The notes beneath the pieces were generated by a model that was not told where the DNA came from, did no database searches, and saw nothing but the letters and a program-made list of their open reading frames with translations. From contig JASXTE010000017.1 of NCBI GenBank assembly GCA_030280995.1, positions 10,874,498 to 10,938,497 of the forward strand: a stretch of 64,000 nt of DNA. Reading direction: 5' to 3'. The position numbers were made by a program, and so were the translations under genes. The stretch is from Hemileia vastatrix. Lineage: Eukaryota > Basidiomycota > Pucciniomycetes > Pucciniales > Zaghouaniaceae. Shown piece by piece: positions 35,758 through 46,677 of the stretch (position 1 is its first letter; the number at the start of each line of letters is the position of its first letter).

Positions 35758-36925
35758 TGTGGTAGCCTAAAGTTTAGTACGGCACCTAAATATGTAAATG
35801 GATTTTTTACGGAATGCAAGATTGGTGTTATTATTTTTTATAAAAGGGTTTTATTTAATTTATTGGAGTTTAAAATATGAAGAAATTGGTCACAAGCGAA
35901 TGCCTACACAAAAACAATTTATTTTACGGAGAAAACTTATTTTTACGGTCTGAAAAATTTATAAGTATTAAGTCCAGTCACTCAAGAACCTTGGGAAATT
36001 TTCCCAGAATTTTTACTATTTTTCTTATATTTTTAAATGAATTTTAAAGTTTTATAGAAATATTTACGTTTTCAAAAATTACTTAACTTTGATGAATTTT
36101 CACGGGGTAATTAGAGCTGCGCAGACTACGAAAATTAGTTTGGTATGTAAAGGGGAAGTAGCTCTATTATGTGTAATTTTTCTAGATTTTTTATTATAGT
36201 TTTAAGGTTCTAAATTGAGTCCGGAAGTCCGGACGGACTCCGTTTCGACTCCGTACGGACTCCGTACGGACTCCGCTTTGACTCCGTACGGACTCCGTTC
36301 CGGCTCCGTACGGACTCCGTACGGGCTCCGGATTGACTCTGGAAGAGCTCTGGAGGGGAAAATTTAGGCACGTGACTAGGAATACTTAAGCGCTTCTCAA
36401 ACTCGAAATTGAGGGGGGGGGATACATCATACAGCTTAATCATTGACCACCACAATCTCATTTTTTATTACTCAACAAATTAAAATAACTTGTAATACCC
36501 TTATAACATTATTATTTTTTACATAACATTTTAGAAATACTACTCAACAATTAAAATAACACTTCATACAGGGTATCTTTAGAAAGGTCTTCATCACTGG
36601 GACTTGATTATTGCTGTCTCATAAAAATTCAAATTATTATAAAAACATAAAAGTCAATCTTTACAGATCTTTCACTGGTACACCTTAATTGTTGTTATCA
36701 GTATTTCTTTCTCAACAGCCACTTTCATTAAATCTCAATAAGCGTTAATTATTTTAGAGTTTCATTATTTTCATCAATCAGATCCAAGTAGATTGGTTAG
36801 CTTAGTGATTTAGAATTCCCATTTTGTTATTTTTTATTGGAAGGACGGGGTTTTTCGGCTAAATCCACATATCTCCTCCGGATTCTGCTTACAGCAAGGC
36901 GACTGTAAGAGTTTACCTTACCATA
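35758..36925 (+). repeat. G2 5' LTR (1168 bp)
   Basis: Starts TGTGGTAGCCTAAAG, ends TTACCTTACCATA. It contains the CCGTACGGACT array at 36220-36340. The short ORF 35695-35880 crosses its border and is not a gene. Confidence 0.95.
36216..36345. repeat. GTAC-centred short tandem array in the G2 5' LTR
   Basis: The 11-12-bp unit GACTCCGTACG recurs about nine times with variants (CCGTTTCGACT, CCGGCTCCG). TCCGTACGGA is self-complementary. The 3' LTR counterpart (about 45978-46090) has about one unit fewer, which explains part of the LTR length difference. Confidence 0.9.
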
Positions 36926-36927
36926 GT

Positions 36928-36944
36928 TGGCGCCCAACGTGGGG
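36928..36944 (+). promoter_or_regulatory. G2 primer-binding site, tRNA-Lys type
   Basis: TGGCGCCCAACGTGGGG starts two bases after the LTR. It equals the first 17 bases of the site known to pair with the 3' end of tRNA-Lys(1,2) in several retroelements. Confidence 0.8.
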
Positions 36945-36995
36945 TTCAATTTCTCTAGCTTTCTTTAAAGACTTACTTGGATCAAGAACGTTCTT

Positions 36996-37057
36996 AGCCT
37001 GCAAGAGGCTTATTTTCTGGAACTCTAATTGGATTTTGTTATTGGCCTGCAAGAGGC
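36996..37057 (+). repeat. G2 leader: two copies of the hairpin motif
   Basis: AGCCTGCAAGAGGCT (36996-37010) and GCCTGCAAGAGGC (37045-37057) form perfect short stems with a GCAAG loop, the first followed by TTATTTTCTGG. They lie 50-120 nt after the primer site and just before gag, where packaging signals are often found. Confidence 0.7.
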
Positions 37058-37099
37058 TTGTTATTTTAACGGTTGTTAACGCTTTTCTTATGTTTTGGG

Positions 37100-38287
37100 A
37101 TGTCTTCTACTATTGGAACTGCTGTGTTGGCTGCTGGTGTACCTGTTAGGGCATCAGTAAGGATTGTATCTTGGGTTGGGCCCAAGTTTTCTGGAGATGA
37201 TTTAGAAGGATTTTTACATAGGTATGAAACTGCAGCTGCGATTGATGGTGCTTTACCTTTGGATATGGTGAAGCAGATTAGGTTCTTTATTTTGGACAGA
37301 GAGGTGGAAAAGGAGGTTATTTCTATGGATGGTTATAAAGATCAAGATTGGAGAAAGCTCAAGATGGAAATGGAAAAAAGGTGGCCAAAAGTTTATTCAT
37401 TGGAGGATCTAAAGGATATAGCTAGGAAATGGGAATCAAAAGGTGGTGTAACATCTCTGCATCAGTATCATCAGTTTATGGTTGAATTTCAGGTGGTTCT
37501 GGATTATTTGTTGGAGTATGAAATTTTATTTCATGATAATGCATCAAAGTATATTTTTTGGGATGCTATGGGGGAAAAGGTTAAGAAAGATGTTTTGATG
37601 GTGCTTATTAATGGGAATTTAATGAAGGATCTCCCAGATGGAGAAACTAGGATTCCTGGTATGGAGGTGCTAAAGAAGGTTATTTTGGAACATCTGGATA
37701 CTCATAACTCTGTTGATTTGGACTCTGGAGAAGACACTTTGGTCACTCAAGAGATAGAAGAGGATGGTGTAAAAGAACTAGTTACTGATGAAATTCCGGA
37801 TTCAGCCATTCCTGAAGATATTATTTTTGTTGACTCTTCTGTTTGGAAAGAAGAGGTTTCTGAAGATGAAGATATTATTGTCACTGATGAAGAAAATTTG
37901 GATGTTGGGGATAATTTTGTTTTGGATAATTTGGAATTTTATTTAGAGGAATATTTACCTCAGGTTTTGTCTTCAAAAGCGGAGACTGTCTGCAATTCAG
38001 ATGTGGATATGGTTTATGAATCTGGTATATGTATGGTGGATTTGTTTCAATCTCAGGAAGAGATTTTTATGGAGGATATGGTTTTTCCTGCACTAATAGA
38101 GAGTGTAGTGCCATTGGACAATAGGGTGCATAAAGTGGATGCACTCATATTTTGGAAAAAGGTAGTTTATTTTTTATGTCCTTTTATAGGACAAATTCTG
38201 GGAATTTATTTTTGGGTTTTATGGAATCGGTGGATAAGCCCTTGGGGCAAAATTATGGATTATTTCCAGGGGATATCAAGAATATAA
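37100..38287 (+). CDS. G2 Gag-like protein, 395 residues, no zinc knuckle, hydrophobic tail
   Basis: ATG at 37100 is the first ATG in frame; the ORF is open upstream only to a TTG. The N-terminal half (KFSGDDLEGFLHRYE, DWRKLKMEMEKRW, YHQFMVEFQVVLDYLL) has the helical pattern of a Ty3/Gypsy capsid and matches the G4 fragment at 62834. The centre is very acidic (EIEEDGVKELVTDE and similar). The last 45 residues contain VVYFLCPFIGQILGIYFWVL, long enough for a membrane segment. No C-x2-C-x4-H-x4-C exists. The ORF ends at TAA 38285-38287, three bases before a hairpin copy. Frame -1 relative to this ORF leads to pol. Confidence 0.8.
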   Translation: MSSTIGTAVLAAGVPVRASVRIVSWVGPKFSGDDLEGFLHRYETAAAIDGALPLDMVKQIRFFILDREVEKEVISMDGYKDQDWRKLKMEMEKRWPKVYSLEDLKDIARKWESKGGVTSLHQYHQFMVEFQVVLDYLLEYEILFHDNASKYIFWDAMGEKVKKDVLMVLINGNLMKDLPDGETRIPGMEVLKKVILEHLDTHNSVDLDSGEDTLVTQEIEEDGVKELVTDEIPDSAIPEDIIFVDSSVWKEEVSEDEDIIVTDEENLDVGDNFVLDNLEFYLEEYLPQVLSSKAETVCNSDVDMVYESGICMVDLFQSQEEIFMEDMVFPALIESVVPLDNRVHKVDALIFWKKVVYFLCPFIGQILGIYFWVLWNRWISPWGKIMDYFQGISRI

Positions 38288-38289
38288 TT

Positions 38290-38311
38290 CCTCCGAAATG
38301 AGGATAAACTA
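38290..38311 (+). repeat. Hairpin motif in the gag-pol gap
   Basis: CCTC-CGAAAT-GAGG followed by ATAAACTA begins 3 nt after the gag stop. It might influence stop readthrough, reinitiation or frame change. The position is seen; the role is inference. Confidence 0.6.
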
Positions 38312-38657
38312 CCTAAACTCGGCTGAAATTTTTTTTTATTGTTATGTCTTCAATTTATTCAGGATTCAAATTATTATGGATGCCCTCATTTTTTGGGGTA
38401 GCAGGGGCTGATCGCTCTAATGTTGTAATCTCTCCTCAGGATGAGATCCCGGATTGCAATAGGTCAGCTCACTTGGAGATAATTCAAGTGGATTCTCAAT
38501 TATTTTCTGTTAATATTACTTTCGAGTGCAAATACTTTATGGACTTTTCTATATGTTTATTGGATTTACCCTGTTTTTCTATAAAATTTAAAAATGGTAA
38601 AAAAGGCAACATGGGCCAAATTAGGTTGGATAAAAATTGGAAGGGTATGTTTTATGA

Positions 38658-38875
38658 CCTCCAGCAAGAGGTTAAACTGCAATTATCTCCTTCTATTTTG
38701 GACCTCCAGCAAGAGGTTAAACTGCAATTATCTCCTTCTATTTTGGACCTCCAGCAAGAGGGTAAACTGCGAAAATCTCATCAAAATCAAATAAAAAATC
38801 TCGGTATAATTAAAACACAAAAAAATAATTTTTGTGAAAATTCAATTCCGGTTCTCCAGCAAGAGGGTAAACTGC
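38658..38875 (+). repeat. Four hairpin copies inside the G2 pol coding sequence
   Basis: Copies at 38658, 38703, 38748 and 38853. The first three are 45 bp apart as a direct repeat. Each has CCTC-CAGCAA-GAGG then K TAAACTGC; the fourth has a T·G outer pair. They encode the LQQE[VG]KL repeats. Confidence 0.85.
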
Positions 38876-40853
38876 CAACTTTCTTTACAGGTGATTTACT
38901 GTTGGATAAGGGAAGCAAAGGTGTTGGAAAATCTGTTTATAAATTAGACGAGGGAAAGGAGAAAAGGGTAAAATTTAAAAATGAAATAAAATATTTTTCT
39001 AATTTTTATTATTCTGATTCTGTCGATGAAGAAGATTCATTTGATGAAAGTTTTAATGGCAATACAAAAGTAAATGATTTACCTCAAGCTTATTTAGATG
39101 TGGACGCAGCCAAATATAAGAAAGTAGCAAATAAAGTTCGACCTATTAATGAACCGCTACCTGCTGAATTAAATCCACCTTTGAGAAGACCAAGGTTATC
39201 AAGAGATCCTTATGAAAGTCCCTTGGTAAAGAATCCGCCTGAATTTTCTGAGACGTCAAGAATCACTTTTGAGAGACTGGGTGTTGTTAATTTTGGACCT
39301 GATGGTTGGTTGTCTGGAGAAGAGAAGAAGTTGTTGTTGGATGTGATGGTCAAGCGAGAGAAGGCCATTGCTTTTGTAGAAGAGGAGAGGGGTGTGTTGA
39401 AGCATTCCTATGGGGAGCCTTACAAGATTCCTGTGGTATGTCATGAACCTTGGCAGCAGAAACCGATTCCTATTCCGGCTGCATTGAAAGAAGCTTATAC
39501 CGAAGTTGTCAGAGAACGGATACGCACTGGACTGTATGAGCAATCAACGTCAAGTTATTCTAGTCCGGTATTTTGTATCAAGAAACCGAATGGCAAGCTT
39601 AGAGTTGTTCATGATCTTAGGGAATTAAATAGGGTTACAATAAAGGATGCTGGGATACCACCTAGTGCTGAGGAGTTTGTTGAAGCGTTTGCAGGGAGAG
39701 TGTGCTATGGTTTGGGAGATATTATGGGTGGATATGATGAGAGAGAGTTACATCCAGACTCAAGGCCTCTCACTACATTCGATACACCACTTGGACGTTT
39801 ACAGTTAACAAGATTACCTCAAGGAGCAACAAATTCGGTTGCAGTTTATCAAGCTCAGATGGCTTGGATCCTTCAAGATGAAATTCCACAATACGCTGGA
39901 ATCTTTATAGATGATGGAGGAATTAAGGGACCAACAACCGACTATGATAACCAGGTGTTGGAAGAGAATCCCGGGATACGCAAATTCATTTGGGAGTTTG
40001 CAATTACTTTAGAAAGAATCTTGTTTTGAATTGAAGAGGCTGGTTTAACTATTTCAGGTTCAAAATTTTCATGTTGTGTGCCAGCCTTAGAAATATTAGG
40101 CCATGTGGTATGTAGAGAGGGTAGGATTATGTCCAAGAAGAAAGTTAACAAAATTCAGTCCTGGCCAAGACCCAAGAATACGACCGAAGTTAGAGGGTTT
40201 TTAGGCGTTTGCGTATATGTTAGAATGTTTATCAAAGACTTTTCTTCATTGGCAGCTCCATTGAGGCGGTTAACGAGAAAGGATGCAGACTGGGAGTGGG
40301 ATGAAGAGTGTGAGAAGGCGTTTGTGAAGTTGAAGGAGGTTGTGGGGAAGGATTTAGTCCTGCACAAGTTAGATTATGGAAAAGATGCTGGTAGAATTTA
40401 TTTAGCAGTTGATTCAAGTCAGGTTGCAGCTGGGGCGGTTTTGTCTCAGATGGATAAAGCTGGTTACATCAGGCCAGTTAGGTATGAATCTGTAGTATTT
40501 ACTGAGGTCGAATCAAGATATTCTCAACCGAAATTGGAATTATGTGGTGTGGCGAAAATACTGAAGAAACTTCAGCATATTTTGTGGGGGCAACATTTTG
40601 AGTTGCAAGTGGATGCGAAATCGTTAATCCAGATGATTAATTCCCCAAGTTTACCGAATGCACCCATGACGAGATGGGTAGCTTTTATTCAACATTTTTC
40701 GTTTGATTTAGTTCATAAGCCTGGCAAAACTTTTACTATGCCAGATGGTTTATCAAGGAGACCACCCACTGAAGAATATTCAGACTCAGAGGAGTTCGAT
40801 GAAGATATACCTATTATCAAAGCCAGCACTAAAGGAGCTGAAGACTTTCCATA

Positions 40854-40933
40854 CCTCCCCCATGAGGTTAAACTTGCAGGACTATTGTGTTTAGATTATG
40901 GTGTTGATGACCTCCACCAAGAGGATAAACTGG
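40854..40933 (+). repeat. Two hairpin copies in the RNase H-integrase linker of G2 pol
   Basis: CCTC-CCCCAT-GAGG-TTAAACTTG at 40854 and CCTC-CACCAA-GAGG-ATAAACTGG at 40911. They are read as LPHEVKL and LHQEDKL, so the coding frame is kept through both. Confidence 0.8.
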
Positions 40934-42554
40934 AAAATAGTTTTTATGTTAATAAAGGTGTAGATAAATTCGGCAGAGAGGAGGTAGAAGAAGATGTGGT
41001 GTATGTAGAGGAAAATGGATTGGTAGTGTGGGATAGTAGTAAATTAAGGAATGGTGTATATGTTGGAGAGTTAGAGAATATAAATAAAAGGGTGGATAAA
41101 GAGAAAGTGGTATTTTCAAATACGGTTTTCGAAGGATCCAAAGGTTCAGAAGAAAAACGTCGACATAGCTCTATTAAAGATTTATTTAGGGGTCAACGAT
41201 TATTGGCTCATTCATGTGCAGGTGATATTGGTGATAGAGAAGTCCCTATTGATGTTATATTAATCGATTTTCAAGATGAAGTCTGGGGTCAGACTGGTTT
41301 TTATTTTTTGTTAGTCAAATATTTGTTGACTTTAGAGAGGCCAGAAGATTGTGAAGACGATGAATGGGTGGCTATCAAGAGGAAGTCATCTACGTTTTAC
41401 CTATCTGGTCGACGTTTAATGAGGAGGAGGTATCCAAATCCTCAAGTAGTTATAACTCAACAGAAGGGACAAGAATTAGTTTTGAAATCACTGCATGAAG
41501 ATCTTGGGCATAGAGGTGTTGGAGAAACGTTTAGAAGAATTTCTGATCAATTTTGGTGGCCTGGCATGAAGATGGCTGTTAAACAGTGGGTTCAGTCATG
41601 CGAAGAATGTCAAAGACGAAGTTATTTAAGGCCAAAAGAACCTGGACGCGCGACCGGTGAATATACGCTCTTTGGAAGAGTTAGTTTAGATGCCGTTCAT
41701 ATAAAAGAGGGACGGTATAAATATTTAATTGTGGCCAGAGATGATTTATCTGGTTGGGTAGAGGCAGCGCCTCTTATTAATTTAACTGCCAAAAATGTGG
41801 CAGAATTTTTTTTGAATAATTGGGTATATAGGTATGGGGTGATGAAGTTGGTGACGGTAGATGGAGGTCCTGAATTTGGGACAGAGTTTAAAGAGGCCGT
41901 ATTGAAAGTTGGATCAAAGGTTAGGGTAGCAACCCCATATTATCCTGAAGCTGAAGGCATGGTGGAAAGAGGGCATCAAGTTATTAAGGATGCTTTAGTT
42001 AAAATGTGTGGGACAAGTGCTGAAAAGTGGAGGCACTATTTACCTTTAGTTTTATTTGCTGATCGAATCACTGCCAAAAGGACGACCGGATTTTCACCTT
42101 ATGAACTTGTTTTTGGACAGAAAGCAGTTTTACCGGTTGATTTAGAAGCTGAATCATATCTTGGAGTTGACTGGGACACGGTCAAAACTACTGAAGAATT
42201 ATTGTGTGCAAGAATGATGCAGCTAGAAAAGAAAGAAGAATATTTAGAAAAGGCATATTCGCGGATGATGAAGATCCGAAATCAATCAGTTAGATATTGG
42301 GATGAGCGGTTGGCACATCGATTAAGGAAACCTTTGAACCCAGGAGATATGGTCCTGGTGTATAATAGGAGTTTGGAAAGTCAGTGGGGAAAAATGTTTG
42401 CAGATAGGTGGAATGGACCGTATAAAATCAAGGAGCAAGTTTCCGGCGGTTCATATGTGCTAGAAGAGTTGGATGGAGTAGTATTGAAGAAGAGGGTAGC
42501 GGCCGATCAAGTGAAACGGTTCTATCCTAGAGGCACCAGGAGTGCCGAAGTCTT

Positions 42555-42811
42555 CCTCCGCAATGAGGATAAACTATGAAACTTCTTAAACTTTACGGAT
42601 TCCTCCGCAATGAGGATAAACTATGATATTGATGAAATTTTACGGATTCCTCCGCAATGAGGATAAACTATGAAACTTCTTAAATTTATGACGTCCTCCG
42701 CAATGAGGATAAACTATGATATCTACGAAATTTTATGGATTCCTCCGCAATGAGGATAAACTATGATGTTTATAAAAATCTTATGACGACCTCTGCAACG
42801 AGGATAAACTA
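42555..42811 (+). repeat. Six-copy hairpin tandem array starting at the pol stop codon
   Basis: CCTC-CGCAAT-GAGG-ATAAACTATGA starts at 42555, 42602, 42649, 42695 and 42742. A sixth, CCTC-TGCAAC-GAGG, starts at 42790. The 46-48-bp spacing and conserved ATGA tail suggest duplication of the pol 3' end, since the first copy contains the pol stop codon. Confidence 0.9.
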
Positions 42812-43946
42812 TCTTCTTTTTTTTTTTTTTTTTATCAAAATACTTTACTATTGTTACACTGTATATGGTCAACGAAACTGTGATGAAACATAACGAAATA
42901 CGAGAAAACCTTCATTGAAAATTTTCAAAATTTAAAATTCTTAAAATATGGGTGAAGATAGTGTTGGAAAAATTTTAAAAATTTATTGGAAGAAGTGTTC
43001 ACAGGGGAACCTTCTTAATTAAATATTGGCAAGTGTGGGGGTAATTGATGGGCTGGCTGCTCTATACACAATTACCCCATAATGTTCGTTTCCAAAATTT
43101 TTCCCTGTTTCTAGTTGAATCCTGGCTTTGTCTTTTAATTTTAGGAAGTCCACTAAGACTATAAACTGGAACGAATCAAGAGACACCGCTCTCAACGCCG
43201 GATTCAAGATTTTTTTTATTTTATTTTGTTTTTGTTTTTTTTATGTTAGATTGTGATTTCTTTTCTTTAATATATATTATGAATTATTGTAAAGGTGATG
43301 CTCACTGGTGGTCTCTAATCATTTTTATAAATTGGAGGGAGCCCACCCAGTGATCATCATTATAAAAATTATCTTTTAAAAACTTTCATTTATTTTCTTT
43401 TCTTTTCAATTTCTTAAAATTGTGTAACCACATCAAGTTGCACTTGGATGTGGGTATGATGTCGAGGGTACGGCTCATCAAATGGCCGGGGGGCATCTTT
43501 TAAAATTTTATTTTAAATTTTTTTTTTATTACTTTTTTTATCTTTCATTTCACACTCAATTATCCTTCTTTAAAAATTAAATTTTAACTTTTATTTCAAA
43601 ACTATCTTTTCTAAAATCTTTTATTTTAAATTTAAAAAAAAAAAATAAAAAATAAAAAAATAAAATTAAAAAAAAAAAAATAAAATAAAAATAAATAAAA
43701 AAAAATAAAAAAAAAAATAAATAAATAAAAATAAAATAAAAATAAAAATAAAATAAATAAAAAAAAAAAAATAATAATAATAAAAAAAAAAAAAAAAAAT
43801 TATTAAAATTAAAATTAAAATTTATTAATTAAATCAAAATCATTATTATATTTCTTAGTTTTATTTTTTTAGTTTTCATTCTTTTTAGTTTTATTCATTT
43901 AGTTTAGACAGGAAACAGGGTCTAGGGGAACTCAATACCTATGGGA
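42812..43946. other. G2 3' non-coding region with A/T simple repeats
   Basis: After a T run (42815-42832) the DNA is AT-rich. A perfect 10-bp inverted repeat GGGGTAATTG/CAATTACCCC lies at 43037-43046 and 43069-43078. One hairpin copy AGTC-CACTAA-GACT-ATAAACTGG is at 43147-43169. A long A-rich (TAAA)n-like tract fills about 43625-43805. No gene is seen. Confidence 0.7.
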
Positions 43947-43967
43947 TTTTACTTCAAGACATCTGTT

Positions 43968-44846
43968 AGTCCTCCAAGACTTTAAACTGGCTACTTTTCA
44001 AGACGTTCTTTAAGACATCTGTTAGTCCTCCAAGACTTTAAACTGGCTACTGTTCAAGACATTCTTTAAGGTTTTTTACACGTATTTTGGATCTGTTAGT
44101 CCTCCAAGACTTTAAACTGGCTACTGTTCAAGACATTCTTTAAGGTTTTATACGAATTTTGGAGCTGTTAGTCCTCCAAGACTTTAAACTGGCTAATTTT
44201 CAAGACTTTCATTAAAGATTTTATATTGGAGCTGTTAGTCCTTCAAGACTTTAAACTGAATTTCAAGGATGTTCAAGATTTTATGGATATTCTTGGAGAC
44301 GGATTTTTTTAAATTTCTTTTATATAAATCAAATGTTAGGTCCACCAAGACCTTAAACTGGAGTGTTATCAAATGTTAGGTCCACCAAGACCTTAAACTG
44401 GACTATTATCAAGTGTTGGGTCCACCATGACCTTAAACTGGATTTCTTATCGATTAAATGTTTGGTCCACCATGACTTTAAACTGGTAGTTCATTCATTG
44501 TTTAGTCCACTATGACTTTAAACTGGAAAATTAATATCTGCAGGATAATTCAACATTCATTGGACCACTATGGCCTTATACTGGATTACTTGTCGATCAA
44601 ATGTTTGGTCCACTATGACATTAAACTGGATTATCAAATTTATTCAATCTTTGGTCAAGCCTAGGCCTTACTTAGGAATATATCAAGATATTTATGCACT
44701 TAAACGATCTTTGGTCCACCAAGACCATAAACTGGCAATCGATTATATGTTTGGTCCACCAAGACTTTAAACTGGAATTTCAATCTTGTTTGGATAACTC
44801 AATTCAATCTTTTAATTTATCACTGTCCACTAAGACTCTAAACTGG
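43968..44846 (+). repeat. G2 3' hairpin array, about 16 copies with changing stems
   Basis: AGTC-CTCCAA-GACT-TTAAACTGG recurs at 43968, 44024, 44098, 44170 and (CTTCAA loop) 44237. GGTC-CACCAA/T-GACC follows at 44339, 44379, 44419 and 44713. GGTC..GACT wobble forms are at 44464 and 44753, and AGTC-CACTAT-GACT is at 44504. Decayed copies are near 44572, 44607 and 44824. All keep TAAACTGG (TATACTGG at 44572). Confidence 0.9.
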
Positions 44847-45250
44847 TTATTCAATTATTTCTGGAATTGGGTGCTGATAAGCTTTAGGAGGTTAAAATTT
44901 TAGGTGGTGATGATGCTAATGAAAGCATAATGTTTAAGTAGGTGAAATTTGTGGCGCTTTAACATGGTCTAAAGTTAATATTATTATTGGAAGCCTGGCA
45001 AAAGTATTTTATGGGTTTGCTGTATAGCAAAGTTTGAAAATTGTGATGAAGGAATCAGAAGTTAGGATGGTAGTTGGATTTTAGGGAATGATTTTTTTTA
45101 GTGCCTCATAGTTAGGCCATTTTTTTTTTGGTGTGAAGCTTGGAGGACCTTATGGCGAGATTGGAATCATAGAATTCGGCTCAGTGGGGGGCCCTATGAG
45201 GTTGGAATCAGGAGTATTCGGCTCATAGGAAGATCCACTCTCTCAATGCT

Positions 45251-45526
45251 GTGACAAGAAGGAAGACTGGTATATGGGAGTCTGAAGGGATTCAAACCTT
45301 GCTCTCAGTAGTGGAATCATCACAAGATTTATATTATTTTATTTTATGTTATATCAAGCCAGAGAAGAAGAAACAACGTTTTTATTATAAAGATTTAAAA
45401 GAAGACCAGCTAAAACAAATTTATCAAATTATTTTATTAGAAAAGATAATTCTTTTGGAATTGCTCAACCACTTATGCAAAGTTTTAAGAATGGGGACAT
45501 TCTCGATTGGAGGGAGGATGTGGTAG
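45251..45526 (+). other. Short ORF just before the G2 3' LTR, function unknown
   Basis: ATG at 45251 gives 91 residues, Lys/Leu/Ile-rich with a possible amphipathic helix (DLKEDQLKQIYQIILLEKII). It ends within the polypurine tract (GGAGGGAGGATG) at the LTR border. An env-like or accessory role cannot be claimed. It may be chance. Confidence 0.25.
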
Positions 45527-45528
45527 CC

Positions 45529-46677
45529 TAAAGTTTAGTACGGCACCTAAATATGTAAATGGATTTTTTACGGAATGCAAGATTGGTGTTATTATTTTTT
45601 ATAAAAGGGTTTTATTTAATTTATTGGAGTTTAAAATATGAAGAAATTGGTCACAAGCGAATGCCTACACAAAAACAATTTATTTTACAGAGAAAACTTA
45701 TTTTTACGGTCTGAAAAATTTATAAGTATTAAGTCGAGTCACTCAAGAACCTTGGGAAATTTTCCCAGAATTTTTACTATTTTTCTTATATTTTTAAATG
45801 AATTTTAAAGTTTTATAGAAATATTTACGTTTTCAAAAATTACTTAACTTTGATGAATTTTCACGGGGTAATTAGAGCTGCGCAGACTACGAAAATTAGT
45901 TTGGTATGTAAAGGGGAAGTAGCTCTATTATGTGTAATTTTTCTAGATTTTTTATTATAGTTTTAAGGTTCTAAATTGAGTCCGGAAGTCCGGACGGACT
46001 CCGTTTCGACTCCGTACGGACTCCGTACGGACTCCGCTTTGACTCCGTACGGACTCCGTACGGACTCCGTACGGGCTCCGGATTGACTCTGGAAGAGCTC
46101 TGGAGGGGAAAATTTAGGCACGTGACTAGGAATACTTAAGCGCTTCTCAAACTCGAAATTGAGGGGGGGGGGGATACATCATACAGCTTAATCATTGACC
46201 ACCACAATCTCATTTTTTATTACTCAACAAATTAAAATAACTTGTAATACCCTTATAACTTTATATTTTATATATAGCATTTTAGAAATACTACTCAACA
46301 ATTTAAATCACACTTCATACAGGGTATCTTTAGAAAGGTCTTCATCGCTGGGACTTGATTATTGCTGTCTCATAAAAATTCAAATTATTATAAAAACATA
46401 AAAGTCAATCTTTTCAGATCTTTCACTGGTACACCTTAATTGTTGTTATCAGTATTTCTTATATCAACAGCCACTTTCTTTAAATCTCAATAAGCGTTAA
46501 TTATTTTAGAGTTTCATTATTTTCATCAATCAGATCCAAGTAGATTGGTTAGCTTAGTGATTTAGAATTCCCATTTTGTTATTTTTTATTGGAAGGACGG
46601 GGTTTTTCGGCTAAATCCACATATCTCCTCCGGATTCTGCTTACAGCAAGGCGACTGTAAGAGTTTACCTTACCATA
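45529..46677 (+). repeat. G2 3' LTR (1149 bp)
   Basis: Starts TGTGGTAGCC after the purine tract GGAGGGAGGA and ends TTACCATA before ACGA. It differs from the 5' LTR by scattered substitutions and a shorter CCGTACGGACT array. Confidence 0.95.

Follow-up and report, generated by a model that had tools for sequence, protein, structure and literature searches.

The retrotransposon and its 23-nt units

The window analyzed here is a 64,000-nt stretch of the Hemileia vastatrix genome (contig JASXTE010000017.1, positions 10,874,498 to 10,938,497 of the forward strand), and it holds a Gypsy long terminal repeat (LTR) retrotransposon at 35758–46677 that carries 29 copies of a small hairpin-and-tail unit, all on the sense strand of the insertion. 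All features described below lie on the plus strand. Based on self-BLAST and the sequence of the ends, the 5′ LTR (35758–36925) and the 3′ LTR (45519–46677) are 97.7% alike, and ACGA flanks the element on each side, standing to the left of the 5′ LTR and directly after the 3′ LTR. The gag open reading frame extends from ATG to TAA at 37100–38287; no Pfam domain was found in Gag, and a homolog search gave none at E ≤ 0.001. The pol frame (38344–42579, ATG to TGA) has reverse transcriptase (RT), RNase H and integrase zinc-binding domains, with the integrase core just below the Pfam cutoff. Because pol contains an in-frame stop at 40027–40029, the window copy is damaged. Since a stop at 38314–38316 precedes the open pol frame, which begins only after it with the ATG at 38344, no simple frameshift joins gag and pol. 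Relatives of pol numbered 239, and the best 120 of these included Puccinia coronata, P. striiformis and Austropuccinia psidii near the top, together with one row labelled as a bacterial metagenome bin. No relative of pol was found among viral contigs.

The units extend from 38290 to 44846, and each consists of a stem strand (letters 1–4), a loop (5–10), the stem partner (11–14), one base (15), TAAACT (16–21) and two final letters (22–23). TAAACT is present in 28 units, and one unit (44562–44584) is degenerate. In a profile scan of the 64 kb on both strands, the weakest unit scored 17.3 bits, and no other site exceeded 12.7. The stems are CCTC/GAGG in 12 units, AGTC/GACT in 7, GGTC/GACC in 4 and GGTC/GACT in 2; of the remaining four, three have a single mismatch and the other, TCTC/GAGG, contains a wobble. 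The tail is exactly TAAACTGG in 15 of the 29 units, and the other tails end in GC (4), GA (1), TG (1) or AT or AC (7), while one further tail reads TATACTGG. Splitting the units by letter 22 gave 21 class I units with G, whose loops include CACCAA, CTCCAA and CAGCAA, and seven class II units with A, whose loops are CGCAAT (5), CGAAAT (1) and TGCAAC (1). The unit at 40854 has T at this letter, vs G in five other copies. A preliminary description of this DNA, made from the letters alone, had reported about 30 copies of the unit in one Gypsy element and the same four stem counts, which our counts reproduce exactly; its constant tail holds for TAAACT and not for the longer TAAACTGG.

The first unit (38290–38312; class II, loop CGAAAT, tail TAAACTAC) begins 2 nt past the gag stop, within the 56-nt gag-pol gap. 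Four class I units with loop CAGCAA and tail TAAACTGC follow, at 38658–38680 in the N-terminal coding part of pol, 38703–38725, 38748–38770 and 38853–38875, the last with the wobble stem. Two units lie in the RNase H-integrase linker: 40854–40876 (loop CCCCAT, tail TAAACTTG, where five other copies have TAAACTGG) and 40911–40933 (class I, loop CACCAA, tail TAAACTGG). At the end of pol, a class II unit with loop CGCAAT (42555–42577) is placed so that the stop codon begins on its letter 23, and five further class II units of 23 nt each occupy 42602–42812, starting at 42602, 42649, 42695 and 42742 (CGCAAT) and at 42790 (TGCAAC). Past this cluster, the first unit is of class I (43147–43169, loop CACTAA, tail TAAACTGG). 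It is followed by five class I units with AGTC/GACT stems at 43968–44259, starting at 43968, 44024, 44098 and 44170 (CTCCAA, tail ending GG) and at 44237 (CTTCAA, tail ending GA), and by ten class I units at 44339–44846, starting at 44339, 44379, 44419, 44464, 44504, 44562 (the degenerate unit), 44607, 44713, 44753 and 44824, mostly with GGTC stems and with loops CACCAA, CACCAT, CACTAT and CACTAA.

The leader contains two hairpins around CCTGCAAGAGG (about 36995–37061), which the preliminary description had included among the units. They lack TAAACT and are a different feature, separate from the units and present in all three leaders seen (window, L023 and L025), where one L023 stem stays paired via a wobble. 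The letters CTTGCAGG after one pol unit (40873–40880) are complementary to CCTGCAAG of a leader hairpin (36998–37005), which may be chance. Elsewhere in the element, an 11-bp palindromic unit, TCCGTACGGAC, is arrayed in both LTRs (36228–36330 and 45989–46080). As read from the translation, the C-terminal part of Gag (38130–38287) is rich in hydrophobic residues and pol starts with a signal-like stretch.

Pairing in the stem and between loop and tail

In 20 distinct window units the stem was 96.3% paired, with a covariation of 0.536 vs 0.160 after shuffling (reached by none of 500 shuffles). A second helix, between loop and tail (pairs 7-23, 8-22 and 9-21), was 88.3% paired in the same units, with a covariation of 0.289 vs 0.159 (reached by 6 of 500). 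Stem pairs 1-14 and 2-13 covaried both in the window and in the genome samples. A blind ranking of 253 column pairs over 50 flank-distinct units, retained from 210 by de-duplication of the flanks, placed 7-23, 13-14, 2-13, 1-14, 2-14, 9-22 and 8-22 at the top, in descending order. Among these, 13-14, 2-14 and 9-22 belong to neither helix, and about four of the 50 ranked units are unlikely to be genuine; these disrupt pairs that are fixed in all the others and account for pair 9-22.

In class I, letters 7 and 23 were paired in 82% of 34 units vs 58% after permutation (P = 0.0002, with related units treated as independent). Among 111,368 genome sites matching TCNNBYANGAN3TAAACTGV, the pair 7-23 was C-G in 61,487, G-C in 19,642 and T-A in 13,914, together 95,043 (85.3%). 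At 8-22, the 53 distinct class I units showed C-G in 36, U.G in 13, A.G in 4 and C.A in none, as pairing in the sense RNA predicts. These results support selection on RNA pairing in the units and support, at the level of sequence, a putative H-type pseudoknot for class I, in which loop letters 3–5 would pair with the last three letters of the tail.

Abundance and conservation of the units

The motif TAAACTGG occurs 18 times in the window vs 2.96 expected, and none of 100 shuffles had as many. Genome-wide counts were made on the 748-Mb assembly that holds the window, with the reversed pattern as control. The relaxed pattern TCN6GAN3TAAACT had 147,825 matches vs 2,180 in the control, and the mismatched stem GTC..GAG, the one mismatch combination counted, was found at 333 sites beside these 147,825. 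Variants with a loop of 5 or 4 nt had 3,474 vs 2,372 and 5,112 vs 1,913 matches, respectively. The loop-4 excess was rejected as true units, four examined sites being a coding repeat of another element (L037–L040) that bears TCCATAGAYRATAAACT. Likewise, all matches with loops of 2, 3, 8 or 10 nt, and 23 of 24 with a loop of 9, share their TAAACT with a unit having a 6-nt loop. An exact search of viral contigs with one class I pattern gave no match.

Individual copies were compared in 21 stretches, comprising one slice of the window and 20 genomic loci chosen around TAAACTGG matches on contigs C1 and C2, 13 of which contain units; L001–L008 are left out of the counts, and L029–L040 out of several of them. 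The resulting 202 units sit in 14 of the 21 stretches, in a single direction within each, and have a 6-nt loop, beside one unit with a loop of 4, one with a loop of 7 and none with a loop of 5. After removal of units near a stretch end, 201 of the 202 entered the analysis of loop letters. Three loci (L029, L030 and L031) hold arrays of YGNNAD-like units with GTC/GAC stems and have no alignment above 150 nt to the window element.

Flank de-duplication left 42 of the 201 units with flanks less than 55% alike, and in these the 23 letters hold nearly all of the information, a few flank positions showing weak signals. Among six copies, the core differed less than the flank in all six segments compared (1.7 vs 4.4%, 8.6 vs 11.8%, 9.4 vs 17.0%, 0.7 vs 3.7%, 2.1 vs 12.4% and 0 vs 5.0%), a column being treated as core wherever at least one copy fitted the motif; gap cells were equally common in core and flank in two of the six segments, where the number of units varies. 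In families that are 74–85% identical to the window in pol (L010, L013–L018 and L027), units occur in the linker of pol, at its end and in the 3′ region. The gap unit is also found in L023 and is absent from L013, the one family-B stretch extending this far. The pol stop begins on unit letter 23 in all five copies with a long frame (window, L009, L011, L023 and L025); another eight stretches have a pol-end unit that lies beyond the reach of any long frame.

The preliminary description had read the matched stem changes as the trace of selection on RNA pairing. Covariation at 1-14 and 2-13 agrees with this, and the flank-distinct units add the loop-tail helix, which that description lacked; the motif is thus genuine and better supported than was claimed there. 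It had also proposed a genome search with a model of the units; the pattern search made here returned the large excess over the reversed control. The description had named tandem duplication of a few parent units as the finding that would speak against it. Tandem duplication accounts for arrays with shared flanks, not for the motif itself, given that the 42 units with dissimilar flanks share almost only their 23 nt.

Coremin and competing explanations

A close counterpart of the units is coremin, as described in the excerpts of PMC10520033 and PMC5869530 drawn on here. It is a viral RNA with the motif GUCCGAAGACGUUAAACUAC that stalls Xrn1 and also slows scanning ribosomes, and it is found in 3′ untranslated regions (UTRs), in gaps and spanning stop codons; the viruses that carry it include fungal hypo- and chrysoviruses (PMC10520033). 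Its hexaloop consensus is YGNNAD followed by UAAACUAY; loops CGCAAU and CGAAAU stall Xrn1, the pentaloops tested there fail, the C and U of the spacer are required, and a second hairpin (hp2) of at least 2 bp must come after the spacer (PMC10520033). The stalled product formed with both yeast Xrn1 and plant XRN4 (PMC5869530). All seven class II units of the window have a 4-bp first hairpin (CCTC/GAGG), directly followed by a UAAACUAC-like spacer that reads TAAACTAT or TAAACTAC past one base, and six of the seven have a YGNNAD loop, the unit at 42790 lying outside it. Several class II units of other families have A.G at the outer pair. The full consensus fits 6 of the 29 window units and has 14,786 genome sites vs one in the control, and the essential C and U of the spacer are fixed in the units. 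Judged by their letters, then, class II is the known coremin hexaloop form (YGNNAD loop, tail UAAACUAY) and class I is a variant with loop CxyYAW and tail UAAACUGr. The 20-nt motif of beet necrotic yellow vein virus (BNYVV) was not found in the window at up to three mismatches. Rfam families were rejected as a source of the units, with no match above the curated threshold in the window and, at E up to 10, four weak unrelated matches at 36900–45600.

We therefore lean slightly toward the units being coremin-like stall elements, that is exoribonuclease-resistant RNAs of the coremin type (xrRNA-C), in the sense RNA of the retrotransposon, and place their function as stall elements at about even. 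Each unit would form a 4-bp hairpin, with the UAAACU-RN tail that follows it holding the 6-nt loop in place. A 5′-to-3′ exonuclease such as Xrn1 that enters decapped element RNA would be halted there, and ribosomes may pause. Units in the gag-pol gap and at the pol stop would guard or trim the RNA at the borders of the reading frames, and the 3′ array would act as a series of fail-safe stops. According to the parts of PMC4589538 and PMC5053509 used here, Ty3 associates with processing-body proteins, Dcp2 and Xrn1 among them, and transposition of both Ty3 and Ty1 falls when Xrn1 is lost; for an element whose RNA collects where decay enzymes are, stall sites could be an advantage. We infer that the units would stall, that this would benefit the element and that class I would work like class II, its loop-tail helix perhaps replacing both the G at loop letter 2 (G2) and hp2.

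Several observations weigh against coremin-like stalling. Tests in the BNYVV context showed no stalling of Xrn1 with loops CAGAAA, CAAGAA or CCGAAA (PMC10520033), and class I departs from the G2 rule of YGNNAD, with A, C, T or G at loop letter 2. No enrichment of hp2 over shuffles or random places was found downstream of 43 class I and 21 class II units: the best-hairpin energy was −1.06 for class I vs −0.84 shuffled and −1.54 random, and −0.40 for class II vs −0.59 and −1.16. A second score, on 46 class I and 25 class II units, showed none either. The commonest mismatch at 7-23 is C.A (5 of 53, with U.G in 1), which lends no support to pairing in the sense strand at this position, and among the 50 flank-distinct units no covariation was found between G2 and the class II tail. 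In pseudoknot-free folding, the probability of all four stem pairs was at least 0.5 in 7 of the 29 sense-strand units and for 6 of the 29 on the antisense strand. The permutation tests ignore relatedness among units, and of the five pair measures two were not above shuffles; the double-change and pair-type counts did not exceed shuffles in either the stem or the loop-tail helix. Relatives from other species do not encode the motif: the unit-encoded peptide L-x-[QHN]-E-x-K-L had 7 matches vs 8.6 in shuffles among the best 120 of 239 pol relatives. Because the peptide is not enriched there, the trait may be confined to Hemileia vastatrix elements. Our confidence stops just above even because class I-like loops failed in the published assays and the wobble evidence is mixed.

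Many copies along one RNA, on one strand only and with matched stem pairs, would also suit the dispersed code proposed in the preliminary description, through which Gag or RT would recognise the RNA for packaging or dimerisation, gaining avidity from copy number, and a Gag that lacks a Pfam domain leaves genome recognition unexplained. However, no Gag homolog was found, both the constant TAAACT of the tail and the two classes of loop agree with coremin, which to our knowledge is not known as a packaging signal, and the leader, where packaging signals often sit, carries a different hairpin. We consider such a code rather unlikely, and coremin-like stall elements explain the units better. Binding by a host protein in decay, export, localisation or silencing, with the likeness to coremin a coincidence of small folds, agrees with the absence of hp2 enrichment and with the recognition role beyond stalling that is suspected for coremin (PMC5869530); class II nevertheless fits the functional consensus letter by letter, and we judge host binding decidedly unlikely.

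Neutral tandem duplication of a few parent units, together with chance matches, would account for the arrays with shared flanks. It is very improbable given that the 23 nt are retained between units whose flanks agree at a nearly random level, that units persist across the families 74–85% alike in pol, and that core divergence lies below flank divergence in six of six segments, although core gaps are as common in two. Least probable of all is a selected Pol peptide with the noncoding copies as by-products: the coding units do share one frame, but at least 17 of the 29 units lie past the first pol stop or in the gag-pol gap, spacings are not multiples of 3, and the peptide is not enriched among the pol relatives compared.

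A bolder form of the coremin-like reading is doubtful, if conceivable: fungal Gypsy elements would have a new xrRNA class, class I, that is freed of hp2 by its loop-tail helix and acts in series, and the class II unit in the gap would yield a decay-made, 5′-trimmed pol messenger. If so, retrotransposons would turn Xrn1 to their own use, like some RNA viruses, with more than 100,000 such sites in one genome. Exonuclease-stalling RNAs of the coremin kind have so far been described from RNA viruses, and we found no report of an xrRNA-type motif in an LTR retrotransposon among the open-licence papers listed by our searches, beyond which such reports may exist. If the units work, a further major group of parasites that depend on RNA would share the mechanism, which would also account for the persistence of element RNA in the presence of decay enzymes. 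In addition, the genomic copies amount to a large set of naturally mutated versions of the coremin fold, for which there was no solved structure at the time of PMC10520033, and class I supplies covariation evidence for a loop-tail contact.

Among known systems, the dispersed packaging signals of RNA viruses likewise consist of many degenerate hairpins on a single RNA; the units stand apart from them in that their single-stranded tail is as fixed as the stem. Flavivirus- and tombusvirus-like xrRNAs sometimes occur in tandem. As covered in the excerpt of PMC12191101, these share with the proposed units a pseudoknot-based block to 5′-3′ exonucleases, and differ in having larger folds and no sequence likeness. 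The hexaloop form of coremin in plant and fungal RNA viruses differs from the units in their location in an LTR retrotransposon with up to 29 copies per element, in the prevalence of class I, which lacks G2, ends in UGG, UGC or UGA and has a covarying 3-bp loop-tail helix, and in its required hp2, which is not enriched here. What the two share, within the portions of PMC10520033 and PMC5869530 compared, is the 4-bp stem with C-G and U-A at its top, the single base before UAAACU, the 6-nt YGNNAD loop and the letters AY in class II, and the placement in gaps, in the 3′ region or UTR and at stop codons.

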